64,000 bases of DNA from Arboricoccus pini (GTDB taxonomy: Bacteria; Pseudomonadota; Alphaproteobacteria; Geminicoccales; Geminicoccaceae). The first letter of the stretch is position 1. Every line of letters starts with the position of its first letter. Location: contig NZ_FYEH01000012.1 in assembly GCF_900187945.1 (NCBI RefSeq), positions 1-64,000 on the forward strand, in the 5' to 3' direction. Below are positions 8,155-29,578 of this stretch, in pieces. The translations under genes and the position numbers were made by a program. The notes under the pieces are model-generated. The model searched no databases. It was not told the origin of the DNA and saw only the letters and a program-made list of their open reading frames with translations.

Positions 8155-10005
8155 TCAGGCGTCGAGAAGAACGTCGCCTTGGGGCTGGCCGACGCAGGTG
8201 AGGACGAAGCCGTCGGCAATATCGTCCTCGCTCAGGACCTGTTGAGCGGGCATGTCCACCCTGCCACGGATCCGTTTGATTTTGCAGGCGCCGCAGATGC
8301 CGGATCGGCAGGAGCTCTGGAGATCGACACTTTCGCGGGTGGCTGCATCCAGGATCGTTTCGCCCGTGGCACACACGACGGTCTTGCCGGTTTTGCGGAA
8401 CGTGACCGTTGCTCGTCCAGCACCGGCAGCTGGAGCAGCCGATGTGGGATACGACGGGTGCGCAGTCGACGGCTTGAGGACCGCCAGGGATCGCGGTGCG
8501 ACGGCAGGGGGGGACGCCAGAGCTGTCGAGGTCGAGCTGCCGCCAAAGCGTTCACTATGGAGGCGCTGGCGCGGTAGTCCTTCCGCGAGAAGCAGGCTCT
8601 CCACCATGTCCATATAGCCCGACGGTCCACAGACGAAAGCTTCCCGTTCGGCCAGATCGTCGACCACCGCCCGCAAGAGTTGCGGGGTAAAGGGCCCGGT
8701 CAGCCCGTGCCAGGATTGGCCGGGAACTAGGCGCTTTGGCACGATGACCAGTCGCAATCGCTCTTGCAGGCGAGCGTTCAGATAGGAGAGTTCTTGCGCG
8801 AAAGCGACATCGGCGAGGCTACGCACGTTATAGATGACGACGCTCTTTGTGGGCGCTTCGGTGTCGGCGATCCAACGGAGCATCGAGATGATGGGGGTGA
8901 TCCCGATCCCGGCAGCGATAAAGAGCAGCTTCGGCGAAGGGTGATCGACGCAGGTGAAATCGCCACCTGGCCCGGTAATATCCAATTCGAAGCCAGGGAT
9001 GACCTCATCCCAGAGCCAGTTCGAGATCCAACCCAACGGCACGCGCTTTACCGATATCGACAAGGTGAAGGGCCGCGAAGGCGAGGAGGAAAGGGTATAA
9101 GTCCTCCTTAACAGACGGTCGCCGATAGGGGCTTCGACGGTGACGAACTGACCGGGCTTGTAGCTGAAGAAGCAGGGTCGGAGGGCACAAAAGCTGTAGG
9201 TCTTGACGTCGTGCGTCTCGATGGTCACCGACACACAACGCAGGCGCATCTTGCCGCCCTGCCAGAGGTCTTCCGTCTTACGGGTAATGCCTGGCGGTGG
9301 CCATGCCGGGAGGCCGAGCCCGGCGGCCGACGTGGCATTTGCGGGCGGCACGGAGTCTTTCGCCGGTGTGCTTCGGCTGCCCGCCTCCGCTCGCGACAAA
9401 GAGCCGCCTTTGGTCCCACTATTGGCCGGCGCGCGGCGTTCGGCTTGCAGAGCAGGCGCCAGCGGAGAGCCCTCGACCGAAGGCAGATCAAGCGGCGGCG
9501 AGGCCGCAGCCAATTCGAAAGCCGGCGGCGAAAATAGCGTCTCGCCATCCCTTTGCTGGATGAGCTTGCGGATCTCGCTGCGCACCTGCGCGCGAGATCT
9601 CGATTCGTTGCCGAGCGTGAACCGATGACCGAAAATTCGGCCATCGCCCGCCAGTTGGGTCACGAAGTCGTCGAGCGCGCGCATCAGGTCCGCATGATGG
9701 CCAGTATCGACGAGCGTACCGATCCTGGCCAAGGCGTCGGCGACGGCGGTTGGGCCTGTCACCAGCCGCCCGGCCTCATAAGCCCCCCACATGGAGGAGT
9801 AGCTGCGCTGCAGTTCGGCTAGTCCTTTGCGTATGTCCTCGTTCATTGTCCAAACGCCATCGCTTAACAATCGATGGAAATGTTGGACGTCGTGAGGTGT
9901 TATGTCCTTCTCGCAGTCGGCGATCGATATAAAGATCAGGAACATAATGCTCGCGAGCTCATCATGCAGATCGACAAGGTCCTGCACGGTCTTTGCTTCC
10001 GACAT
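8155..10005 (-). CDS. Hcr-like flavin/2Fe-2S reductase with extra N-terminal helical domain
   Basis: Cytosolic NAD(P)H electron-transfer protein of 616 residues. Residues 1-150 are helical, His-rich in places (DVQHFHRLLSDG, VDTGHHADLM) and match no domain I know. Residues 155-245 are a Pro/Ala/Ser linker. From about 250 comes a ferredoxin-reductase module: FAD motif RRTYTLSSSPS (300-310), NAD motif AAGIGITPIISMLRW, and VCGPSGYMDMVE. A second linker leads to a plant-type ferredoxin (530-616) with Cys566, Cys571, Cys574 and Cys604 for one 2Fe-2S cluster. Hcr reductases normally lack the first 240 residues. It begins 51 bases after the Fe-S/FHA membrane protein gene, with a GAGGGGG ribosome site, so the two are surely one operon. 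Confidence 0.85.
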   Translation of the reverse strand: MSEAKTVQDLVDLHDELASIMFLIFISIADCEKDITPHDVQHFHRLLSDGVWTMNEDIRKGLAELQRSYSSMWGAYEAGRLVTGPTAVADALARIGTLVDTGHHADLMRALDDFVTQLAGDGRIFGHRFTLGNESRSRAQVRSEIRKLIQQRDGETLFSPPAFELAAASPPLDLPSVEGSPLAPALQAERRAPANSGTKGGSLSRAEAGSRSTPAKDSVPPANATSAAGLGLPAWPPPGITRKTEDLWQGGKMRLRCVSVTIETHDVKTYSFCALRPCFFSYKPGQFVTVEAPIGDRLLRRTYTLSSSPSRPFTLSISVKRVPLGWISNWLWDEVIPGFELDITGPGGDFTCVDHPSPKLLFIAAGIGITPIISMLRWIADTEAPTKSVVIYNVRSLADVAFAQELSYLNARLQERLRLVIVPKRLVPGQSWHGLTGPFTPQLLRAVVDDLAEREAFVCGPSGYMDMVESLLLAEGLPRQRLHSERFGGSSTSTALASPPAVAPRSLAVLKPSTAHPSYPTSAAPAAGAGRATVTFRKTGKTVVCATGETILDAATRESVDLQSSCRSGICGACKIKRIRGRVDMPAQQVLSEDDIADGFVLTCVGQPQGDVLLDA

Positions 10006-10056
10006 GACTCATTCCCCCTCGACTTGAAATCTATTTGGACGGATCAAATGGACGCA

Positions 10057-13000
10057 TCACTCAATGTTGAGCGCGGCCGCCAGCGCAGGTGGCCGCGCGC
10101 TGGCGGCCCGACTTGAAGCCAATGACCTTTGTCCTCCGAGCGTGTCGCTCGGCGCCGTCCGCCAGTCTGGGGCGACGATAATGACGGCAAATTCGCTGAC
10201 GATCTGGTAGACACGATCGCCGGTCGTCGCGCCGCCCTTTTGCGCTTCAGGAAATTCCAGCTGCACACGCGCACTCAAGCTGGCACTTTCAGCATCGTCG
10301 CCGGTCGGATCAGGTGAGTATTTGACCGAGCCCAGGTAGAGAAGATGGGCAACGCGCCCAGCTTCCGCCAACGGGCGAAGCTCGCCGCCGCACTTGTAGC
10401 GTCGCACTTCGCTCTCTTGTGCAATCATGGCCAGCCTGCCGAGCGGCATGTCGCCCAGGATGTCGAATTCGGCCAGCAGGAGGATGCGCGTGACGGTATC
10501 GTAGGCTTCCAACTCGTAGGACTTGGGCGCTTCCCAATCGAGCTTTAGGACGGGCCCTACTCCACCTATCGCGGCAAAGCTGATCGAGGCGCCGCGCTCG
10601 ACGACGGCGGAGGCGCTATCGCACAAAAGGCCATCGACGAAGAAAGGGGCCAGGTCCAGACGCTCGACCCGCACCTCGCCCAAGTGGCGGACGATGGCCA
10701 GATGATAGGGTAGGAGGCTACGGTCCCGGATACTCACGTCGTTACCGGGCGCGCGCCCGACGGTGATCTTGGATTGGGTCCAGTTCGTTACCTGAGCCGT
10801 CTTGTCAGGCCATGTCACCGTGAGATGCAATGCCATGAGGCCGGCGGTATTGTTTCCACCCCTGGGGCCCATGGCCAAGAGCCCAGCTAGGACTTCATCG
10901 AGCAGCCAATGGCCAACGAGCTCGTCCTTCGGACGGCTGGCCTTGAGACCGGCTGCCGCCTCTGCGGCCAGTGGCGGATCGATACCGGCAAACGCCGTCA
11001 GGGTGAGCGCTTGGCCAATGGGATCGGCGTTGCCCAGGAGGGTCTCGAGATTTGCAGCCCCGTCCAGTCCTTGCACGATGACGTCGCGAAAGACGTGGCG
11101 CTCCAATCCTTCGGGCGATTCGAGCTCTTTTTGCGTATCTTGGAGACGCAGCGCAGCGACGAGATCGGGAGCCAGGGCGCTTTCCCAACTCGTCCCGGCA
11201 TCGCGCGCGGCCGGAAGCAACAGAAGGGGTGCCATGACGTGGCCGGCAAAGCCTGCTGCGTCGCTCGCATACCAAAGGCCGAGCTCGCTCGGGCCCATGG
11301 CCCTGAGCAGGCTCAGTAGCCTGCAGCCAACATCCCGCAGGTGGCCGCCCACCTGGGTGTGCAGGAGGCGCCCCAGCGTGATCGAGAAGCTGTCGCCGCA
11401 CAGGTTCGAATCCAGGAAAAAGCGCGCGGCCAGGAGGTCTTGCAGCGTTTGCAGGCAGATCGAGGCGCGCATGCTCATGATCCCGTTGGGCTCGGCAAGC
11501 CCGCGCAGCATCCTTTGATGATCTTCGGCTGAGACCTGCAAGCTTGCCTGCAGCACGTCGAAGGTGGTGCGCATGTCGTGGCTATCCCGCAGGCCCGCGA
11601 GGGTGCCCCCGGCCTCGACATGATTGACGACCATTCCTCCAGCCATGTCGCGGTAAGCAGCAAAGGCGGTTTCCTTCTCCAGGCTCGTCGCTTCCGACGC
11701 TCTTGAATCGACGACCTCGCTCATGCCTAAATCGTCGAGCAGCCGCGCATGGTCGGCGTCACTGATCCCCATCTGCGTACGGATGTCGTAGAGGAGGTCT
11801 GCGAAGGATGTCGTGCTCGTCGTACCGGTAGCGACGGCGTCGTCCAGAACATTGCGATAGGCTTGCAGCTTCTGCTCGTGTGAAAAGCCCGGCAGAACCT
11901 TGGTCAGCAGATAGAGCTCGTCGGGTCCGAGATCGTCGAGCTGGCGTCCGTCCAAATAATGAGCAACGTCGACTTTGAGCTTTTTCAGCTGACTTAGCAG
12001 GCTCGATGCCATGCCCTCGCGGCGATATTTGATGGGTGAGCGCTGCAGGGCCTGCCAGAGCCACATCGTCGTCAGGAGAACGATCAGAATGTCGACGATG
12101 TGCATCGCCAAAGCTGGCAGCAATAAAAGGTTGGGGCGCCCCCCGAACAGATAGAAGGTGTTGATCGAGACATAGGCGCTCACGCACAGGCAGTGATTGA
12201 CAATCTCTGCCTCCGAGATACGCCCTTTGCGGTTGCGGAACGACCGATAGGCGCGCTCGAGGAGCTTGCCGATCGCAAGCGAGGCCACGGCCGCCAGCAG
12301 GAGAACCAGCGGCGCTGCCAGCACTTTGGGGATCGGCACCACCTGGCCTCTAAGATAGAGGCCAGGTGACATCAGCTTTGCAAGCGCGCCTTCCTCATGA
12401 GTCCAGATGCCGGAGAAGTAATAATCTCCGCTGCCAGAATATAGGTAATAGTATCCGTAAAATCCGACGATAAGACCAAAGAACATATAATAGACCTGCC
12501 GGCGGGCAGGATTGGCGATGCTATCCCAATATGAGCGCTCGAGGTCGATATCGCCGCAATTGGCCGTGCACGCGACACAGGCGCTGCGGTCACTCTCGTT
12601 GGAGGATGCCCGGCACATGGATTGCGGGGTCGCCGGTCGCTCCACATGCGGGGCGCTCTCCAGCAGGCCGCGTGGCTCAGTATAGATCTTCTGCACGATG
12701 TTGACCGGACAGAAATAGTTACACCAGCTCTTGCCGCCCCAAAGCGTCCCAACCAGGAACGCCGCGGCCAGCACGCCAAGCAAGGCCACCGCGAGCGCCA
12801 TCCGGTCGCTGTTGATCAAGAGTATGCGCGATGTCAGGCCCGCAAACAGAAGGCCTAGCTGGACGTACCACGCATGCCGTGCCAGCCAGTCATTGCGGCC
12901 AATCAAGGCCAGGACGCGCTCGATTTTTCCCGTCCGGCGTTGAAGGACGATCCGCCGGCGCTGCAATCCCAGATAACGCGGGAATTGGGATACGAAGGAG

Positions 13001-13296
13001 AGCGGGCAGATCCGGCGCCAGGCCTCATGACCAAAGACCATGAGAAACAGCGGCAAAACCGGCACGACCATCGTCCAGAAGATACGAGCGCCCATTGCAT
13101 AAGGGCTGTTTTGAAGAAGCTGGTCCTGTACGGGTATCCCTGTGGCCGTAATTCGAAAGGGGCTGCCGAGCTTCTCGGGCATGGTCCAGGCGGTGGTCAG
13201 CGGATCCCAAAAAAGCGACACGATCAATCCAAGCCATCCAAGCAGGAGGGTGGCACGGACAATAACCATCTTTCGCTCGGTCGTTCGCGCGAACAT
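10057..13296 (-). CDS. Membrane Fe-S protein with FHA and cyclic-nucleotide-binding-like domains
   Basis: A 1079-residue protein I cannot assign to a described family. The N-terminal third has about six to eight hydrophobic segments and NapH/NosR-like Cys motifs: Cys97 (RRICPLS), Cys192 and Cys196 (SWCNYFCPVNIVQKIY), Cys228, and Cys240-x2-Cys243-x3-Cys247 (ACVACTANCGD), enough for one or two clusters. Residues about 430-820 are a soluble, helical-repeat-like region. Residues 823-925 are an FHA domain (TVGRAPGNDVSIRD...YHLAIV), normally a phosphothreonine reader. Residues 931-1045 resemble a CRP-type cyclic-nucleotide-binding fold (LLLAEFDILGDMPLGRLAMI). It is co-operonic with the reductase, so electrons probably flow between them, under control by signalling inputs. 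Confidence 0.7.
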   Translation of the reverse strand: MFARTTERKMVIVRATLLLGWLGLIVSLFWDPLTTAWTMPEKLGSPFRITATGIPVQDQLLQNSPYAMGARIFWTMVVPVLPLFLMVFGHEAWRRICPLSFVSQFPRYLGLQRRRIVLQRRTGKIERVLALIGRNDWLARHAWYVQLGLLFAGLTSRILLINSDRMALAVALLGVLAAAFLVGTLWGGKSWCNYFCPVNIVQKIYTEPRGLLESAPHVERPATPQSMCRASSNESDRSACVACTANCGDIDLERSYWDSIANPARRQVYYMFFGLIVGFYGYYYLYSGSGDYYFSGIWTHEEGALAKLMSPGLYLRGQVVPIPKVLAAPLVLLLAAVASLAIGKLLERAYRSFRNRKGRISEAEIVNHCLCVSAYVSINTFYLFGGRPNLLLLPALAMHIVDILIVLLTTMWLWQALQRSPIKYRREGMASSLLSQLKKLKVDVAHYLDGRQLDDLGPDELYLLTKVLPGFSHEQKLQAYRNVLDDAVATGTTSTTSFADLLYDIRTQMGISDADHARLLDDLGMSEVVDSRASEATSLEKETAFAAYRDMAGGMVVNHVEAGGTLAGLRDSHDMRTTFDVLQASLQVSAEDHQRMLRGLAEPNGIMSMRASICLQTLQDLLAARFFLDSNLCGDSFSITLGRLLHTQVGGHLRDVGCRLLSLLRAMGPSELGLWYASDAAGFAGHVMAPLLLLPAARDAGTSWESALAPDLVAALRLQDTQKELESPEGLERHVFRDVIVQGLDGAANLETLLGNADPIGQALTLTAFAGIDPPLAAEAAAGLKASRPKDELVGHWLLDEVLAGLLAMGPRGGNNTAGLMALHLTVTWPDKTAQVTNWTQSKITVGRAPGNDVSIRDRSLLPYHLAIVRHLGEVRVERLDLAPFFVDGLLCDSASAVVERGASISFAAIGGVGPVLKLDWEAPKSYELEAYDTVTRILLLAEFDILGDMPLGRLAMIAQESEVRRYKCGGELRPLAEAGRVAHLLYLGSVKYSPDPTGDDAESASLSARVQLEFPEAQKGGATTGDRVYQIVSEFAVIIVAPDWRTAPSDTLGGQRSLASSRAASARPPALAAALNIE

Positions 13297-13543
13297 GCTT
13301 GAGGCTCCGGCGTCTCAGCTGAGCGCAGTTGGCAAGAACCGACCCGCGATCAGTCCCTGTCATTTCTTCCCCGACAGGTTACTCGCCGATGAATGGCCCC
13401 AAATAGTCGTTAGATGATATGCGGAAAATACATGCGAGTATGATTACGATCATTGTCGTCAGTATTGATATATGCGCATGCGATTTTGGCATTACCGCGA
13501 CTGACCGCAGGGCGATGAAGATTGGGGCGACGCAAGACCGAGG
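13297..13543. promoter_or_regulatory. Divergent promoter region with four ATGCG motifs
   Basis: The gap between the Fe-S/FHA gene (minus) and the di-haem peroxidase gene (plus) must hold both promoters. It is markedly more AT-rich around 13411-13490. There ATGCG occurs at 13419, 13432, 13472 and 13478, the last two within the self-complementary ATGCGCAT. This could be a shared operator. I found no convincing FNR box (TTGAT-N4-ATCAA). Confidence 0.35.
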
Positions 13544-14662
13544 ATGATGTCTGTGATCTCACAGGGCGCGACAGCAAAAACCAAACGCCTGCCCATATTG
13601 CCGGCCAGGCCCGTTCGCCCGAGGCGACGGCGATGTCGGGCCGGCAATCGACGGGCGTTGTCTGTTGCGGATTGGCTAGTCCGGGCACTCGCGGGTGTGA
13701 ACCTGGCATTCTTAACAGCGATACCAGCGGTCTCGGCTCAAGAAGCCATCGTCCCCATTCCGTTGCATCAGGATCTGGATTTACGCAAGGTCAAGCTCGG
13801 CGCTTCGCTGTTTAGAGACCCGCGCCTTTCGCACGATAACAGCAATTCATGTTCGACCTGCCACCTCTTAGAGCGCGGAGGTGCCGACGGTCTGCCTTTA
13901 TCGGCGGGCCTGGACGGAAAGCCCGGCATGACGAACACGCCGACGGTCTTCAACTCTGCCTTTAACTTCCGGCTGAATTGGGACGGTCGGGGCGCCTCGC
14001 TGGCGACGCAGCTCGATGCCGCCATCAAGGATCCGACCGTCATGGGTGCGACTTGGCCCGAGATCATCGACAAACTGAAGGCCGACAAACGCTTCTCCGT
14101 AGAATTTACCAAAGTCTATCCGCAAGGCTTGACGCCAGATGCGACCATCGACGCCCTCGTTACCTACGAGCGCTCTCTGACGACGCCCGATGCGCCTTTC
14201 GATCGCTATCTCCGCGGTGATGTAGCAGCCGTCGATGCGGACGAGCTCGAGGGGTATCGCCTCTTTAAGGCCTACGGGTGCATCGCCTGCCACCAGGGAA
14301 TGAACGTGGGTGGCAACATGATGCAGGTATTTGGCGTCCTCGGTGATCCCGGCGATTATTTTCGCGGGAAGGGGTCAACAACGCCCTTCGATACCGGCCT
14401 TTATCGGCTGACGGGCAAGGAAGAGGACAAGTTCGTCTTTCGAGTGCCGAGCCTTCGCAACGTCGCCTTAACGGCACCTTATTTCAATGACGGCTCCGCA
14501 ACAACACTGCCGGATGCCATTCGGATCATGGCAAAATATCAGTTGGGCCGCCCCATCAGCGAGCGCGACGTCGACCTGATCGTGGCCTTTCTGCAGACCC
14601 TGACGGGCGACTATGAGGGCAAGCCCCTCGATGCCCCAAGTGCCAGTGCGGCCGCTCATTGA
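13544..14662 (+). CDS. Di-haem cytochrome c peroxidase / MauG family protein
   Basis: Exported di-haem protein of 372 residues that either reduces hydrogen peroxide with electrons from cytochrome c or oxidises a partner as MauG does. Two c-haem sites are plain: Cys103-x2-Cys106-His107 (NSCSTCHLL) and Cys246-x2-Cys249-His250 (YGCIACHQG). NTPTVFNSAFNF and FRVPSLRNVALTAPYFNDGS are family hallmarks. The signal sequence (about residues 47-66, ending AVSAQ) follows an unusually long basic leader, so the true start may be further in. It is followed by a histidine kinase and a regulator on the same strand and is divergent from the Fe-S/FHA operon. Confidence 0.88.
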   Translation: MMSVISQGATAKTKRLPILPARPVRPRRRRCRAGNRRALSVADWLVRALAGVNLAFLTAIPAVSAQEAIVPIPLHQDLDLRKVKLGASLFRDPRLSHDNSNSCSTCHLLERGGADGLPLSAGLDGKPGMTNTPTVFNSAFNFRLNWDGRGASLATQLDAAIKDPTVMGATWPEIIDKLKADKRFSVEFTKVYPQGLTPDATIDALVTYERSLTTPDAPFDRYLRGDVAAVDADELEGYRLFKAYGCIACHQGMNVGGNMMQVFGVLGDPGDYFRGKGSTTPFDTGLYRLTGKEEDKFVFRVPSLRNVALTAPYFNDGSATTLPDAIRIMAKYQLGRPISERDVDLIVAFLQTLTGDYEGKPLDAPSASAAAH

Positions 14663-14722
14663 CGACGGTTCGGCCAACTCAAATCCCCGCCGTGCTGTAG
14701 GAAGTTGCAAAGAGGTCTCTCG

Positions 14723-16447
<1,725 letters not shown>

Positions 16448-16480
16448 AATCTTTTCTTCTCAAATCGAGGAGCGCCGTTC

Positions 16481-17446
16481 GTGACCCAGAAGCCAACCCT
16501 TCTTTTCGTCGACGACGAAGAGCGCGTCGTCAAACTCTTGAAGATCATGTTTCGCGCGGATTATCAGGTTTTCACGGCCAATAGCGGCCGTGAAGCCCTA
16601 GCTATTCTCGAAGCGCATCATATCGACGTCATCGCCAGCGACCAGCGCATGCCGGAAATGCTTGGCATCGAACTCTTGGCGCAAGCGGCCAAACGCTGGC
16701 CGCATTCGGTCCGCATCCTCCTGACTGGCTATAGCGATCTCGTAGCCATCATCGGCGCGGTCAACGAAGGCGAGGTCTTTCGTTTTCTCAACAAGCCATG
16801 GAACCAGGATGAGCTTCGCGCCGTCATTGCCGAAGCGGTACAGATCTCCCAGCGCGATCGAGAAGCAGCACTCGCAGCGGCGGCCAGCCCACAAGGAGCC
16901 CCCGCCGAGGATGTGGCGCGGTCGAGCAGTCAGTTGCCTCTAGCGACGGCGGCCAAGCTCCTGGCGATCGACGGCATTGCGAGTGACCGTCAGGAAGTCG
17001 TCGAGATGTTCACGCAGGATTACCACGTGATCACGGCCTCCACCATCGAGACGGCACTCGAGATGATCGAGATGCATGATGTGGGCGTCATCGTGACGAA
17101 CAGCATCGTCGACGGCGTCGACATCACCGACATGCTGGCGGCCATTCGTGAGCAATATCCAGCCATTACGGTCGTCGTCGTCACCACCAACCCCGATAGT
17201 GACACGATCATCAAGCTGATCAATCGCGGCCAGATCTATCGTTTCGCGATGAAACCTCTAAGCCCCAATATTTTCCGCTTGGCCGTAGGCGCGGCGATGC
17301 GGGAATATCATCGCCGGCTGGCCGACATTCGCTTGTCTCCGCCGACACCGCGGCATGACCCGAGTGCTGTCACATCCGGCGTCTTTGAAAGTTTCGTGCG
17401 CAGCATTGCCCGCTTCACCAAGGTGCGCGATCGTTCTTCGCTCTGA
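16481..17446 (+). CDS. Double-receiver response regulator, second receiver degenerate
   Basis: Cytosolic regulator of 321 residues that starts at a GTG with GAGGAG upstream. Receiver 1 (5-125) is complete: acidic pair LFVDDEE, phospho-acceptor Asp54 in IASDQRMPE, ILLTGYS and FLNKPWN, resembling RpfG/HupR-type receivers. Receiver 2 (158-285) keeps the fold and the Lys (FAMKPLS), but Asn207 replaces the phospho-acceptor Asp (IVTNSIVDG), so it cannot be phosphorylated normally. No output domain follows; the last 30 residues are polar. It sits 33 bases after the kinase and is its likely partner, acting by protein-protein contact rather than DNA binding. Confidence 0.85.
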   Translation: MTQKPTLLFVDDEERVVKLLKIMFRADYQVFTANSGREALAILEAHHIDVIASDQRMPEMLGIELLAQAAKRWPHSVRILLTGYSDLVAIIGAVNEGEVFRFLNKPWNQDELRAVIAEAVQISQRDREAALAAAASPQGAPAEDVARSSSQLPLATAAKLLAIDGIASDRQEVVEMFTQDYHVITASTIETALEMIEMHDVGVIVTNSIVDGVDITDMLAAIREQYPAITVVVVTTNPDSDTIIKLINRGQIYRFAMKPLSPNIFRLAVGAAMREYHRRLADIRLSPPTPRHDPSAVTSGVFESFVRSIARFTKVRDRSSL

Positions 17447-24705: not shown

Positions 24706-27240
24706 TCAGCGCGTCCGGGACGTGAGCGCCCTGCCCTCGGTCCCCGCCTGAGGCGCCGGGTTCAGTTGGCGCTCGAGCACGGCGCGAAGATCGGCGGCAA
24801 GAAGCGGTTTGCGCACGACCTCCTTGATGCCGACGCGCTGAATGAGCTCAACCGAGGGAAGGCTCACGAGCCCGGTCATCAAGACGATCGGCAGGTCGGG
24901 AACGATCGCGTTCACGCGTGCGGCCAACTCGATCCCCTTCATGCGCGGCATGACCTCGTCGGTAAGGACCAGATCAAAACGATCGGGCGCCGCGGCAAGG
25001 GCCGCGAGGGCCGCGTGCGGATCGCTAAATCCCATGGGCTCGCAGCCCATCGAAGCCACGGCCTCCTCCGTGATGCGCAAAAGGCCGACCTCGTCATCGA
25101 CGATCATGACGATCTCGCCCTGGCCCTGAAACGTGCTGCCCGTCCTGCCGGGGAGGTTGGCGACCTGCTGCGCGTGCGGCAGGTAAACGGTAAAGACGCT
25201 GCCGCGACCAGGTTCGCTCTCGACGTCGATCGCGCCTTGATGCTCCGTCACCATGACTCGGATCGTGGCCAGCCCCAGGCCGGTGCCGGCATCCTTGGTC
25301 GTGAAGAAGGGCTCGAAGATGTTCTCGATCACCGCCCGGCTCATGCCGACGCCATGATCCTCGACGCAAAGCCTAGCATAGGCACCGGTCGCCAGTTCGC
25401 CATGCGAGAGTTGGCGTGGGGCCGTCACGACCTCGAGATCGAGCGAGATGGTCACCTGGCCCTCACCGTCCATGGCCTGAGCGGCGTTGCGCGCCAGGTT
25501 CATGATGACCTGCTGCACCTCGGCCGGATCGGCGGCGACCGTCAGCGGCGAGGTGCCCTTATGGACGACATACGCGACCTTTGCTGCTAGCGAGATCTCC
25601 AAAAGCCGGATGGTCTCGTCGAGCAGGTCACCCAATTCGACCTGCTGGAGATGGTGATCGCGCTGGCGGCTAAGGGTCAAGATCTGCTCGACCACGTCGG
25701 CTGCTCGTCGGCCCGAACTCAGGATCTCGCGCACGTAGGTTCCGGCTGTCGAGCCAGGCCCGGTCTGCTCCAGGGCCATTTCCGCGTAGCCCAGAATGGC
25801 CCCCAGGATATTATTGAAATTATGCGCCACGCCGCTGGCGATCGTCCCGACCGCCTGGACACGCTGGGCATGATGGAGACGGCTTGTCAGCCTGTCGCGC
25901 TCGAGACTGGAGAGTCGTCCCTGCCATGCCTGCAGCACCGTGTCGGCGACCATCCGCATCAGCCCGATATTCTCGGCCGGCCACGGCTTCTCGACGCGCA
26001 GCCGATCCAGGCCCATGATGCCGATCACCAAGCTGCGATGCATGACGCTGACGCCAAGCCACGAGCGCACGCCATTGGCCTCGAACTGCTGGCGGAACGG
26101 GCCCGACGGCAGCTGCGAGACCCGGTCCACAATGGCCACACTCTCCTGCCGCGGGCAGCTTTCATCGTCGAACAGGGTCAGCGCCGCCTCGGCCCAAGCC
26201 AGCTGCGCCTCGTCGTCCGGTACGTCGTCAGCCGTCCAGATCGCGAAATGCCGTTCGCCATAGCTTGGATGGGTTGCCAGGAAATAGACTCGATCGGCCT
26301 CGAAATGCCGTGCCAGAATCGCCAGTCCGTCCTCGATCGCGGCCTGAACGCTGTCGGCCGGCACGCCGACAAGCATGCTCGACAGCCCCACCACCATCTG
26401 CTCCAGCGCGAGGCGCGATTCGAGCGACTTCGCCCGCAGATCGAGCAGGCGCGCACTGCGCCGGACCTGACCGTAGAGGAAGACGAACATCCCAAGGAGG
26501 CCAAGCGCCACGGTGTAGAGAGCCAACCGCCACCGCGCGGATTGAGCCTCCATCTGGACCACTTCGCCGTTGAGTGTCGCTTGCAGCGCGTTGATGGACT
26601 GGCCCGCACGGTCTTCGGCCAACGTACGCAGCATCTGATCGACAGCCGGCAAGGTGCGCTCGATCATGCGACCGTGCGCCAGCATGGCACGCATATCGCC
26701 ATCGTCGTCTTGCGCCTGCACCCGACGGTCGAGCGCCGTCAGCAACTCTCGCAGGTGCTCATCGGCGTCCGCGGCCGTGGTCATCGCGAACCCCATCATG
26801 GCGTTGGCCAAGGGGCCAACCGCGTCGCTGAAGGGCCCCGAACGTTGGCTGCTGTGCGCTATCAATTGACTAAAATAGGCGACTGAATTGCGCACGGTGG
26901 CATTGCTGGCAGTGAAGGCGAAGACCTGCGACTCCTGCACACGCAGCGTCTCAGCAACCTTGTCGGTCAGTGCCATCTCGGTGGGCGACATGTTGGAATC
27001 CCTTGTAAGGGCCATTCCATCGTCGCGCAGCCTGTCCATGGCCGCGACGATCGGGTCGTCGTTGGCAACCAGATAGGACCGCGCCGCCAGCACCAGCTTT
27101 TGCAGCGATGCCTGCGTCATCACCATATCGCGCACCAGATCCAGATTATGCCGAGCATTCTCCAAGGCAGGCCGCGTCTGGACGAGGAGGAAGGTCAGGA
27201 GGAGGAAGAGAGCAACCGCGATCAGGGCGACGCGCTTCAA
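24706..27240 (-). CDS. Hybrid histidine kinase: DAHL-like, GAF, kinase, receiver
   Basis: Membrane hybrid kinase of 844 residues. It starts at a TTG whose bases overlap the stop of the di-haem peroxidase gene, so the two are translationally coupled. Order: transmembrane helix 1 ([17 protein letters not shown]), all-helical DAHL-like sensory domain (about 25-265, with [15 protein letters not shown]), helix 2 ([18 protein letters not shown]), GAF-like domain (about 300-445), H-box [18 protein letters not shown], ATPase ([16 protein letters not shown]), then a receiver ([10 protein letters not shown], Asp in VLTDEVMPR, Lys in VVRKPLL). It is the second kinase of this kind in the window beside a di-haem peroxidase. 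The downstream phosphorelay partner is unknown. Confidence 0.88.
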
Positions 27241-28232
27241 TGCATAGCCCTCCCGGCGGCGTCCTTCTGCTCGAGGATTGGAGGACGGGCGGTAAGCGTC
27301 CGCAGGAAGTCGGCGATCAGCGCCACGTCCGCCGAATCCAGTTCGCGGCCCAGCTGGAATCCCGACATTTTCTGAATCGCCCCATCCAGGGTAGCGACCG
27401 ACCCGTCGTGAAAATAAGGTGCGGTTTCAGCCACATTGCGCAGGCTGGGCACGCGAAAGACGCCCCGATCCGCCTCATCATGGGTGATGTCGTAGCGACC
27501 AAGTGCCGCCCGACTGGACGGTTGGCTTGCATTCGGATCGCCGAAGATTCCAAAGCGTTGATAGAGATTGCCGCCCACATCGCGCCCCTGATGACAGGCG
27601 ATGCAGCCATATTCCTGAAAGCGCCGATAGCCTTCGAGTTCCGTCGGGGTAATGGCGCCGCTGTCGCCGGCCAGATAGCGATCAAAACGCGAATTTGGGG
27701 TGACGAGCTGACGCTCGAAGGCTTGAAGGGCATCGCCCACCTGCACGATCGAGGGCGTCCCTCCATAGATCGCCGCAAAGAGCGGACGATAGGCGGCACT
27801 GTCCATAAGCCGCTCCGACAAGGTGGCCTCGTCCAGTCCCATGATCGCCGGATTGAGAATGGCTTTGACCGCCTGCTCCAGCAAGGTTCGCTGGTCCCCT
27901 CGCCAACCCAAGCGAAAGGCCAGGGAGACATTGAACACCGTAGGTGTATTCAGACGCAGATCGGGGGACAAGGCTGGATCGGTTGCTGCCGTGTCAGCGC
28001 CAAAGCCGTCCAGATCGTGGCAGCTGGCACAGGAAACATTCTTGTCCCTGGACAGGATCGGATCACTGAAGAGCTTCTGGCCCAACGCAATCTTGCGCGC
28101 ATCGTCCTGCGGCGGCGACGGAACCGGCACGATAGCCACCCGATGGGAGAGCACGCTGTCCTCCGCCGCCAGCCGGCCCGGCGCGCATGCCAGCAGCAGG
28201 ATCAAAACGACCCGGGCCAAGTCAAGACGCAT
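27237..28232 (-). CDS. Di-haem cytochrome c peroxidase / MauG family protein, second copy
   Basis: Exported di-haem protein of 331 residues, shorter than the copy near 14 kb but of the same layout. Signal peptide residues 1-23 (LARVVLILLLACAPGRLAAE). Haem sites: Cys68-x2-Cys71-His72 (VSCASCHDL) and Cys210-x2-Cys213-His214 (YGCIACHQG). LNTPTVFNVSLAFRLGW and FRVPSLRNVAETAPYFHDGS align with the first copy. The two proteins are clearly paralogues of one subfamily and each is followed by a DAHL-type kinase. Its stop overlaps the kinase start. Either peroxide reduction or MauG-like substrate oxidation is possible. Confidence 0.88.
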   Translation of the reverse strand: MRLDLARVVLILLLACAPGRLAAEDSVLSHRVAIVPVPSPPQDDARKIALGQKLFSDPILSRDKNVSCASCHDLDGFGADTAATDPALSPDLRLNTPTVFNVSLAFRLGWRGDQRTLLEQAVKAILNPAIMGLDEATLSERLMDSAAYRPLFAAIYGGTPSIVQVGDALQAFERQLVTPNSRFDRYLAGDSGAITPTELEGYRRFQEYGCIACHQGRDVGGNLYQRFGIFGDPNASQPSSRAALGRYDITHDEADRGVFRVPSLRNVAETAPYFHDGSVATLDGAIQKMSGFQLGRELDSADVALIADFLRTLTARPPILEQKDAAGRAMH

Positions 28233-28370: not shown

Positions 28371-29357
28371 TCAGGCGGCCGACATGTCGCGGGCAATATC
28401 TCTGTTGCGGACGACGGCCAGGGCGGCGCTCGCTATCTCCGCCCTGATCAAGGCGTGGCCGGCGTCCCGGTGATTGCGCTCATGCCAGATCAGCGAGACC
28501 TCGTAGGGAGGCAGGTCCACCGGCACGTCCATGACGGTCAGCGGCAGCATGGAGGCTGCCTGCATAGCCACGCGTTGCGGCACGATCAGACAAAGATCGG
28601 TTTCGGCCACCATGACGGGGGCAGCCATCATGTTCGGTACAATTAGCGGATTGGCATCGGGCAGAGCGAGCCCGCTCAGTGCGTCAAAGACCTGACCGAA
28701 GCCTTCCTCGGACCCAGGGGCCACCACCGCATGGCGCAGGGAGGCAAAGCTCTCTTCCCCCCAGCTCTGATCCAGGACCGGGTGGTCGCGACGCAGCAAG
28801 CACGCGAACTGGTCGACATAGAGACTGCGACGATAGAAGCCAGAAGGCGCGCTCACCACCTGACCGATCGCGTAGTCGATCTCGCCTGCCTCCAGGCGCT
28901 TGAGCGCGCCGGCGAACAAAGAGTGCGTCACGAGTTGCACATCGGGGGCGCGGGTCCGCAGCCGCGGCAGAAGGCGCGGCAGTAAAAGAAGTGTCTGATG
29001 ATCCGGCATCACCACGTTGATGGTCGCTTGCCAATTGTCGACGGCGGTCTGCCGCAAGACCAGGAGGTCACGCACGGCACTCAAAGCCTGGGGCAGCCTA
29101 GCGGCGATCTGCTCACCGCGTGGCGTGACTGTAAAGCCTGTCGACGTTCGCACGAGAATATCGTCATCGAACATGCCGCGCAGTCGGGAAAGGGCCCGGC
29201 TCATGGCGGGCTGGCTGAGGCCGATCTGCTGGCCCGCATGTGTAACATTGCGATGATCCAAGAGCGCTTCCAGCGCCACCAGCAGATTGAGGTCCAGCGC
29301 AGCCAGGTTGACCTGGGGACGAGCTGGCGTCGCGAGATGAAGCGCGGCGGCCGTCAT
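28371..29357 (-). CDS. LysR-family regulator, NodD-like
   Basis: Regulator of 328 residues from the Met at 29357; the open frame extends to 29495, but the first 46 residues look non-native and precede the usual N-terminus. The helix-turn-helix domain reads LDLNLLVALEALLDHRNVTH followed by AGQQIGLSQPAMSRALSRLR, as in NodD/SyrM-type LysR proteins, then a substrate-binding-like domain. It lies 138 bases upstream of the di-haem peroxidase-kinase pair on the same strand and may control it. The inducer is unknown. Confidence 0.88.
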   Translation of the reverse strand: MTAAALHLATPARPQVNLAALDLNLLVALEALLDHRNVTHAGQQIGLSQPAMSRALSRLRGMFDDDILVRTSTGFTVTPRGEQIAARLPQALSAVRDLLVLRQTAVDNWQATINVVMPDHQTLLLLPRLLPRLRTRAPDVQLVTHSLFAGALKRLEAGEIDYAIGQVVSAPSGFYRRSLYVDQFACLLRRDHPVLDQSWGEESFASLRHAVVAPGSEEGFGQVFDALSGLALPDANPLIVPNMMAAPVMVAETDLCLIVPQRVAMQAASMLPLTVMDVPVDLPPYEVSLIWHERNHRDAGHALIRAEIASAALAVVRNRDIARDMSAA

Positions 29358-29578
29358 TGGGCGCGCCCGATCGAATTGGACGACATCCGGCCAGCGTCGT
29401 CCGGGGAGGCGGAAATGAGTAGCATTAGCACGTGTCGGGTACCTCCGATCCACGCCCTTGCTCACCAGGGCAGCATTTCGTTGAGCTCGTTCCACGACCG
29501 ATCCTCTGGGCGTCGCCGGCTACGCTGGGATTTCAGTCCAGATCTTTTTGGTTGCATTTGTAACTTTGCGAGGCTGAT

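Follow-up and report, generated by a model that had tools for sequence, protein, structure and literature searches.

The window analysed here, a stretch of 64,000 nucleotides from the alphaproteobacterium Arboricoccus pini (contig NZ_FYEH01000012.1, positions 1 to 64,000), carries an island of five genes in two divergent groups: a reductase (RED) and a large membrane Fe-S protein (BIG) on one strand, and a di-haem peroxidase homologue (PER), a histidine kinase (HK) and a response regulator (RR) on the other. All five open reading frames were found where the initial annotation of this DNA had placed them:

8155..10005, minus strand: RED, 616 aa; NAD(P)H-FAD-2Fe-2S reductase with an N-terminal helical domain at about residues 7–151 (structure model)
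10057..13296, minus strand: BIG, 1079 aa; membrane Fe-S protein with a membrane part (about residues 1–420), a helical region (about 420–810), an FHA fold (819–924) and a degenerate CRP-like C-terminus
13297..13543: divergent intergenic region between BIG and PER, 247 bp, 53% GC
13544..14662, plus strand: PER, 372 aa; di-haem peroxidase homologue
14705..16447, plus strand: HK, 580 aa, TTG start; DAHL-domain histidine kinase
16481..17446, plus strand: RR, 321 aa; receiver followed by a pseudo-receiver

RED and BIG are separated by 51 bp, PER and HK by 42 bp, HK and RR by 33 bp, and the divergently oriented BIG and PER by 247 bp.

We could trace relatives of BIG to 64 places in public genomes. 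Twelve of these loci are alphaproteobacterial, a count that includes L009, which is titled Mycobacterium sp. KBS0706 but groups with the alphaproteobacteria. The divergent order RR-HK-PER <> BIG-RED is kept in nine of the 12 (L002–L009 and L054), with a BIG of at least 974 aa and proteins that are 38–67% identical to those of the window. RED adjoins BIG in 20 of the 64 loci, which span alphaproteobacteria, SAR324 and cyanobacteria. The initial annotation had been prepared to call the island a chance arrangement if the large Fe-S protein never occurred near the reductase or the peroxidase and kinase genes in other genomes; both counts speak against chance. Pairwise identities rise and fall together across the five proteins (Spearman 0.79–0.96, 45 non-independent pairs), and inheritance of the five genes as one unit whose members diverged together is supported by these comparisons. 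For each of the five proteins, the closest of the nine loci to the window is L009. The record thus carries the island closest to that of the window, and the organism name on it is probably wrong.

The island is a sporadic set with its arrangement kept. BIG was found in one of the 385 genomes of our class sample (the window's own genome) and in two of the 397 genomes of the order sample around G415. The remaining alphaproteobacterial loci differ in content. In L010, a metagenome-assembled genome, a BIG of 947 aa and RED stand divergent from a di-haem protein, DHOR (844 aa), that takes the place of PER; the genome has no PER match at E 1e-60, and no HK or RR is present at the locus. L011 and L012 carry a short BIG alone. 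No RED lies beside the short BIG in L011, L012 or L071, the three Rhizobium records whose neighbours were checked, and 24 of 25 Rhizobium plasmid records match only the membrane Fe-S part of BIG (29–40% of the query, about 54–58% identical). The complete five-gene set is found on two annotated plasmids, pRsp8C3a of R. etli and pAt3 of A. fabrum, and a sequence search gave BIG and HK matches in a second A. fabrum record. The fetched stretches of L003, L004, L007, L054 and L067 contain repC, and those of L067 and L068 VirC1/VirC2, so that the set can evidently travel on plasmids. Rhizobial copies also carry two LysR genes after RED (L003, L004, L005, L006, L007, L008, L054 and L069).

HK matched the DAHL domain (PF19443) with 146.6 bits, far above the cut-off of 38, followed by HisKA and HATPase_c (Pfam). 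Its DAHL domain (residues 40–270) lies between two predicted transmembrane helices (17–35 and 272–290) and should therefore be located outside the cell membrane. The phospho-acceptor His334 is present in all ten aligned island kinases. We examined the neighbourhood of DAHL domains across the 385 genomes of the class sample and the 359 of a phylum sample, the window's own genome included. DAHL matches that pass the Pfam cut-off number 78, and 67 of them have a CCP_MauG match 432–612 bp upstream on the same strand. This coupling was seen in 50 of the 57 DAHL-bearing genomes and in 59 of the 60 DAHL matches with at least 76 bits. Both samples together hold 115 CCP_MauG matches, 67 coupled and 48 uncoupled; three weak rows (20–22 bits) were left out of the coupling count, and four of the 115 matches lie in two genomes (G256 and G280) whose DAHL matches are under the cut-off.

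The window's own genome follows the same pattern. It has two CCP_MauG and two DAHL matches in all, which form two adjacent pairs, both of them in the window. The second pair is located about 7 kb from the island, and the start of its kinase gene overlaps the stop of its peroxidase gene by 4 nt:

24706..27240, minus strand: HK2, 844 aa; hybrid DAHL-GAF-HisKA-HATPase-REC kinase
27237..28232, minus strand: PER2, 331 aa; second di-haem peroxidase homologue
28371..29495, minus strand: LysR-type regulator upstream of PER2-HK2

Over 281 aa, this LysR-type regulator shares 33% identity with the second LysR protein encoded after RED in the rhizobial islands. Rhizobial paralogues of PER in L090, L091, L094 and L095 likewise stand directly before a large kinase; DAHL was confirmed in the L090 kinase, and the pair adjoins an OmpR-type DNA-binding regulator in L090 and L094.

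PER itself gave a CCP_MauG match in Pfam and has two CxxCH motifs, at residues 103–107 and 246–250. A hydrophobic stretch at 45–63 is probably an export signal. The scores against the classical di-haem cytochrome c peroxidases 1nml, 3o5c and 4aal are about 212–217 bits. Site columns were read by alignment to 1nml, with the numbering H71, Q104, E114 and M275 of the peroxidase literature; His71 caps the active-site haem and Glu114 is catalytic in the classical enzymes. The description of PER as a di-haem peroxidase in the initial annotation holds for the homology and the two CxxCH motifs, but the distal His and the catalytic Glu of the classical enzymes are missing (Leu123 and Val166 in PER). 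All ten island PERs keep both CxxCH motifs, Trp94 and the axial Met (Met275 of 1nml, Met329 in PER). In the His71 column they have Leu (9 of 10) or Gln (1 of 10), and in the Glu114 column Thr (8 of 10) or Val (2 of 10), never Glu. PER2 has Leu and Ile at these two positions.

The loss of the histidine extends well beyond the island. When the comparison was narrowed, after the data were seen, to proteins with the axial Met, all 67 kinase-coupled proteins (66 distinct) lacked His71, which 15 of the 17 uncoupled proteins have (p 9e-15). The trait common to coupled PERs is thus the missing histidine lid. The Glu114 column behaves differently: over all CCP_MauG proteins, Glu is found in none of the ten from the island, in 41 of the 58 other coupled ones and in 34 of the 40 uncoupled ones, which suggests a loss of activity for the island PERs and some relatives only. 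The 48 uncoupled matches are reduced to 40 in these site counts, since six fragments, L137 (no open reading frame with two CxxCH) and L135 (under 50 bits) were dropped. On the coupled side, 56 of the 67 matches were read, the two from the window among them, and three rows (L091, L094 and L095) were added from further rhizobial genomes that the samples do not include. One row, L244, duplicates the L003 gene, so that 67 or 68 coupled rows represent one fewer distinct sequence.

A phylogenetic tree of 109 sequences showed the same division. A single branch with support 100/99 splits the 68 coupled from the 38 uncoupled sequences; the remaining three are solved chains. One of these, 9qdt, is named probable cytochrome c peroxidase and falls on the coupled side, and because of it the careful tree needs two coupled/uncoupled changes if the three solved chains are counted as uncoupled. 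The long-branch rows L129, L135 and L188_0 were left out of this tree; a quick tree with all rows needs one change. The 11 island PER rows (L244 included) group as a single, weakly supported clade (94/41).

RR is the best conserved of the five proteins (58–67% identity to the window). Its first receiver has Asp11, Asp12, Asp54, Thr82 and Lys105 in 10 of 10 sequences. The initial annotation had proposed a double receiver, and two receiver stretches are indeed present, but by eye the second has Asn207 in the place of the acceptor Asp, again in 10 of 10. Pfam searches found no output or DNA-binding domain in RR; its target is therefore likely to be a protein partner.

We next turn to the other half of the island. 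RED contains FAD_binding_6, NAD_binding_1 and Fer2 domains (Pfam), and its structure model shows the extra N-terminal helical domain. Enzymes of this family take a hydride from NAD(P)H and pass on single electrons through the 2Fe-2S cluster. RED had been described as a modified Hcr-like reductase. It is a flavin/2Fe-2S reductase, but the assignment to Hcr could not be upheld: the score on NF007964 (NADH oxidoreductase), which we take to be the model for Hcr, the NADH oxidoreductase for the hybrid-cluster protein, is 220 bits against a cut-off of 383. A higher score was obtained with the model for the glycine betaine monooxygenase reductase GbcB (NF058606, 315.5 bits), still under its cut-off of 500.

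For BIG, Pfam returned Fer4_5 (26.3 bits, cut-off 22) and an FHA domain just under its cut-off (19.0 versus 20.7 bits). The structure model (mean pLDDT, the per-residue confidence score, 84.4; pTM, the global fold score, 0.55) displays the membrane part, the long helical region, the FHA fold and the CRP-like end. Structure comparison bore out the FHA domain of the initial annotation, with a fold at residues 819–922 (Z 15.7, root-mean-square deviation 2.0, 98 aligned residues). The fold searches were dominated by this domain, and we place no weight on them for the membrane half. The proposed CRP-like or cyclic-nucleotide-binding (cNMP) domain is visible in the family rather than in the window protein, which has no match to PF00027: relatives in L010, L051, L022 and L063 carry a cNMP domain above the Pfam cut-off, and the BIG family profile matches cGMP/cAMP-binding domains. 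The best 60 of the 194 solved chains matched by this profile all cover the CRP-like end only (profile positions 772–933).

Seven Cys residues of BIG (97, 192, 196, 228, 240, 243 and 247) are invariant in all 64 rows that span them in a 66-row alignment. The only near-invariant His residues of the membrane part are His90 and His217 (40 of 41 each). Membrane polyferredoxins of the NapH/CcoG type are defined by two CxxxCP motifs. BIG shares with them the Fer4_5 match and the CxxxCP motif, but it has only one complete copy (C192-C196-P197), the first being reduced to C97-P98, so that it falls outside this definition, and the helical, FHA and CRP-like regions that extend it set it apart further.

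Whereas the FHA domain is part of BIG in alphaproteobacteria, cyanobacterial REDs begin with one themselves (55 bits for the L052 protein), at the place where island REDs carry the helical domain. The phosphothreonine-binding Ser of FHA domains sits three residues before a His, and all 8 aligned REDs from cyanobacteria have it. Since the FHA domain occurs on either of the two neighbouring proteins, RED and BIG may act as one complex. That they work as a linked pair is supported by these comparisons, and electrons would pass from RED to BIG. In six of nine cyanobacterial BIG-RED loci, the pair is immediately preceded by a co-directional clustered gene, c5. The three c5 products that were searched (L026, L050 and L052) combine a Ser/Thr kinase with WD40 repeats; c5 of L053 is a fragment of 164 aa, and similarity alone placed the genes of L040 and L049 in c5. 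Of the other loci, L036 has an HlyD-type protein in this place, L061 has none, and L057 has a Ser/Thr kinase one gene off on the opposite strand. Two signalling styles appear to be attached to RED-BIG, a Ser/Thr kinase with FHA in cyanobacteria and a two-component system in alphaproteobacteria.

We could also observe BIG in other surroundings. In six cyanobacterial loci (L013, L015, L027, L028, L034 and L046), a longer BIG directly follows a nitrate/bicarbonate-type ABC transporter cluster; the families were read in L013 (NMT1_2, BPD_transp_1 and ABC_tran with NMT1_2), and the other loci were assigned by clustering. In Pseudanabaena and relatives (L019, L020, L022 and L025), the genes before BIG encode NDH-1-type subunits, the CO2-hydration protein ChpXY and a fasciclin protein (families from L020), suggesting a link to inorganic-carbon uptake in these organisms. 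In a SAR324 locus, the gene after BIG-RED (L051:7197-9614) encodes a protein of 805 aa that matches metallo-beta-lactamase and has two cNMP-binding stretches. Distant relatives of BIG in Sulfurimonas (L063, L064 and L065) lie beside rhodanese and dapB (families from L063), and the one in L063 has a clear cNMP domain.

The intergenic region between BIG and PER had been described as an AT-rich shared promoter. The gap is divergent, but its AT-richness is mild (53% GC versus 55–62% in the surrounding 1-kb steps), and no promoter motif was established in it. An FNR-like palindrome with at most two mismatches occurs in four of the ten BIG-PER regions (window, L004, L005 and L007), a raw count to which we attach no weight; a CRP-like palindrome at the same tolerance occurs in none of the ten. 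A role in anti-phage defence was rejected, as none of the five island proteins matches a PADLOC model at E 0.001.

These features can be combined into a model in which the island joins two modules. In the first, PER, HK and RR would form a periplasmic sensor. PER, its active-site haem free of the histidine lid, would serve the DAHL kinase as a subunit that binds a ligand or responds to redox state. Candidate signals are peroxide, NO, O2 and the redox state of periplasmic cytochromes. The state of PER would be relayed to the kinase through the periplasmic DAHL domain, and phosphate would then pass from His334 of HK to Asp54 of RR. In the second module, electrons would flow from NAD(P)H through FAD and the 2Fe-2S cluster of RED to the Fe-S clusters of BIG; this direction is an inference, as is the side of the membrane on which the clusters would lie. 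The BIG tail, with its helical region, FHA and CRP-like domain, would set the activity of BIG. Because RR has no DNA-binding domain and a conserved terminal pseudo-receiver, we expect its phosphorylated form to act by contact with a protein partner. BIG and RED are the nearest candidates, although that RR acts on one of them is a tentative suggestion. Judged from sequence comparisons, the sensor part formed by PER and HK is the firmest portion of the model, and we hold it with good confidence. For the composite of this di-haem sensor and its output-less RR beside a regulated RED-BIG pair, we lean only slightly in favour. A broader version would have one entire clade of di-haem peroxidases turned into periplasmic receptors for DAHL kinases, DAHL as a haem-protein docking domain and the island kinase gating, directly through RR, the NAD(P)H-driven flow into BIG and not genes, with the cyanobacterial BIG working with an FHA-bearing RED beside a Ser/Thr kinase; taken jointly, we regard these propositions as doubtful.

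Several observations weigh against this model. Eleven of the 78 DAHL matches have no CCP_MauG match upstream; several of these lie near contig ends, but in G932:C130 a different gene precedes DAHL, and no CCP_MauG match was obtained in G285. Over all CCP_MauG proteins, His71 is found in none of 68 coupled and in 18 of 40 uncoupled proteins, so that proteins without a kinase partner can lack it as well. Glu114 is kept in 41 of the 67 coupled proteins of the Met type (and in 17 of 17 uncoupled ones), and many coupled proteins may have remained active enzymes, with turnover as their means of signalling. On the electron-transfer side, no path across the membrane through BIG was established. The FHA domain is absent from three of the ten island BIGs by alignment, and all seven that have it carry Leu or Trp in place of the phosphopeptide-binding Ser. 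Furthermore, a plasmid stretch of A. vitis (L068:8417-14787) keeps PER-HK-RR together with two LysR genes, and tblastn found no BIG or RED in the whole 25.6-kb stretch. The PER-HK-RR and RED-BIG halves can part, and RR on this plasmid must therefore have another target.

The initial annotation had joined all parts into one chain, in which electrons run from NAD(P)H through RED and BIG into the periplasm and on to PER as a working peroxidase, with the kinase reading the flux. The conserved gene set would fit such a chain, and DHOR in L010 hints that a di-haem enzyme suits BIG-RED. However, a coupled PER-DAHL pair is found in eight of the 385 class-sample genomes and BIG in only one, PER-HK-RR stands alone on the A. 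vitis plasmid stretch, and cyanobacterial BIG-RED occurs without PER. PER therefore goes with the kinase, and an outward flow from BIG-RED to PER that the kinase merely reports is not supported by these distributions. The island PERs also lack Glu114 and the distal His, and with His90 and His217 as the only near-invariant histidines, a route through BIG to the periplasm is not established. We consider the single chain quite improbable.

A different explanation would be that PER is an active peroxidase that needs no reductive activation and that HK and RR only regulate its expression, as ordinary stress-response bookkeeping. This would account for the CxxCH motifs, the axial Met and Trp94, all of which are kept, for the many Met-type coupled homologues that retain Glu114, and for 9qdt on the coupled side of the tree. 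On the other hand, 59 of the 60 strong cases have a kinase directly downstream, which exceeds the usual needs of self-regulation, the island RR has no recognizable DNA-binding domain, and Glu114 is lost in the island PERs; we see this explanation as unlikely, if somewhat less so than the single chain. It is very improbable that the island is a regulator of plasmid maintenance or transfer, which in rhizobia would sense host-plant redox state and control plasmid functions accordingly. The repC and VirC1/VirC2 genes near some rhizobial copies would suit such a role, but no match to RepC, VirC1 or VirC2 was found at 1e-10 in the window, L002, L005, L006, L008, L009 or L069, and BIG-RED is also present in cyanobacteria and SAR324.

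The sensor model has precedents, as accessory extracytoplasmic proteins that serve kinases are already known. HbpS of streptomycetes binds haem and is not known to be a di-haem c-type peroxidase. With the membrane kinase SenS and the regulator SenR, which binds DNA, this secreted accessory redox protein forms a redox-sensing pathway (PMC4991794). The island resembles it in combining an accessory extracytoplasmic protein, a kinase and a regulator, and differs in the di-haem peroxidase homologue, the RR without an output domain and the additional BIG-RED pair. A similar likeness exists to AioX-AioS-AioR, where, according to PMC3834237, AioX is a periplasmic accessory protein encoded beside its kinase and regulator; unlike PER, AioX binds arsenite and is no cytochrome. 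In c-haem Cache sensor domains, a cytochrome-derived c-haem has been recruited for extracytoplasmic sensing within the receptor domain (PMC12889525), whereas the island haem resides in a separate protein, PER, and the window HK has no CxxCH.

Among enzymes, PER has the two CxxCH motifs, the axial Met and Trp94 in common with the classical cytochrome c peroxidases, from which the island PERs are set apart by the loss of His71 and Glu114 and by the link to a kinase. It belongs to the same superfamily as MauG (82 bits) and 6e1c, named 'Di-heme enzyme' (114 bits), which we take to be MbnH. The axial ligand of MauG is Tyr294 (PMC7567364), and the axial Met329 of PER sits at this position. On account of this ligand we rejected a MauG-type protein-modifying enzyme. 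The score of PER on TIGR03791 is 131 bits (cut-off 444).

Among the literature matches listed, with subscription literature partly covered, none described a di-haem peroxidase paired with a DAHL kinase, or BIG. The name DAHL occurred in a single paper of the literature searched, as a table entry. What appears new here is the proposed placement of a di-haem peroxidase group in an accessory sensor role, tied to DAHL, and BIG itself. The genome context gives DAHL a concrete hypothesis, namely that it reads a partner di-haem protein. If this is true, it would explain the loss of the histidine lid in the coupled peroxidase homologues, which would then be a case of evolution from enzyme to receptor, and it would put a genetically encoded periplasmic haem sensor on offer. 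RED-BIG, in turn, would be a regulated device for membrane electron transfer that belongs to a new class.

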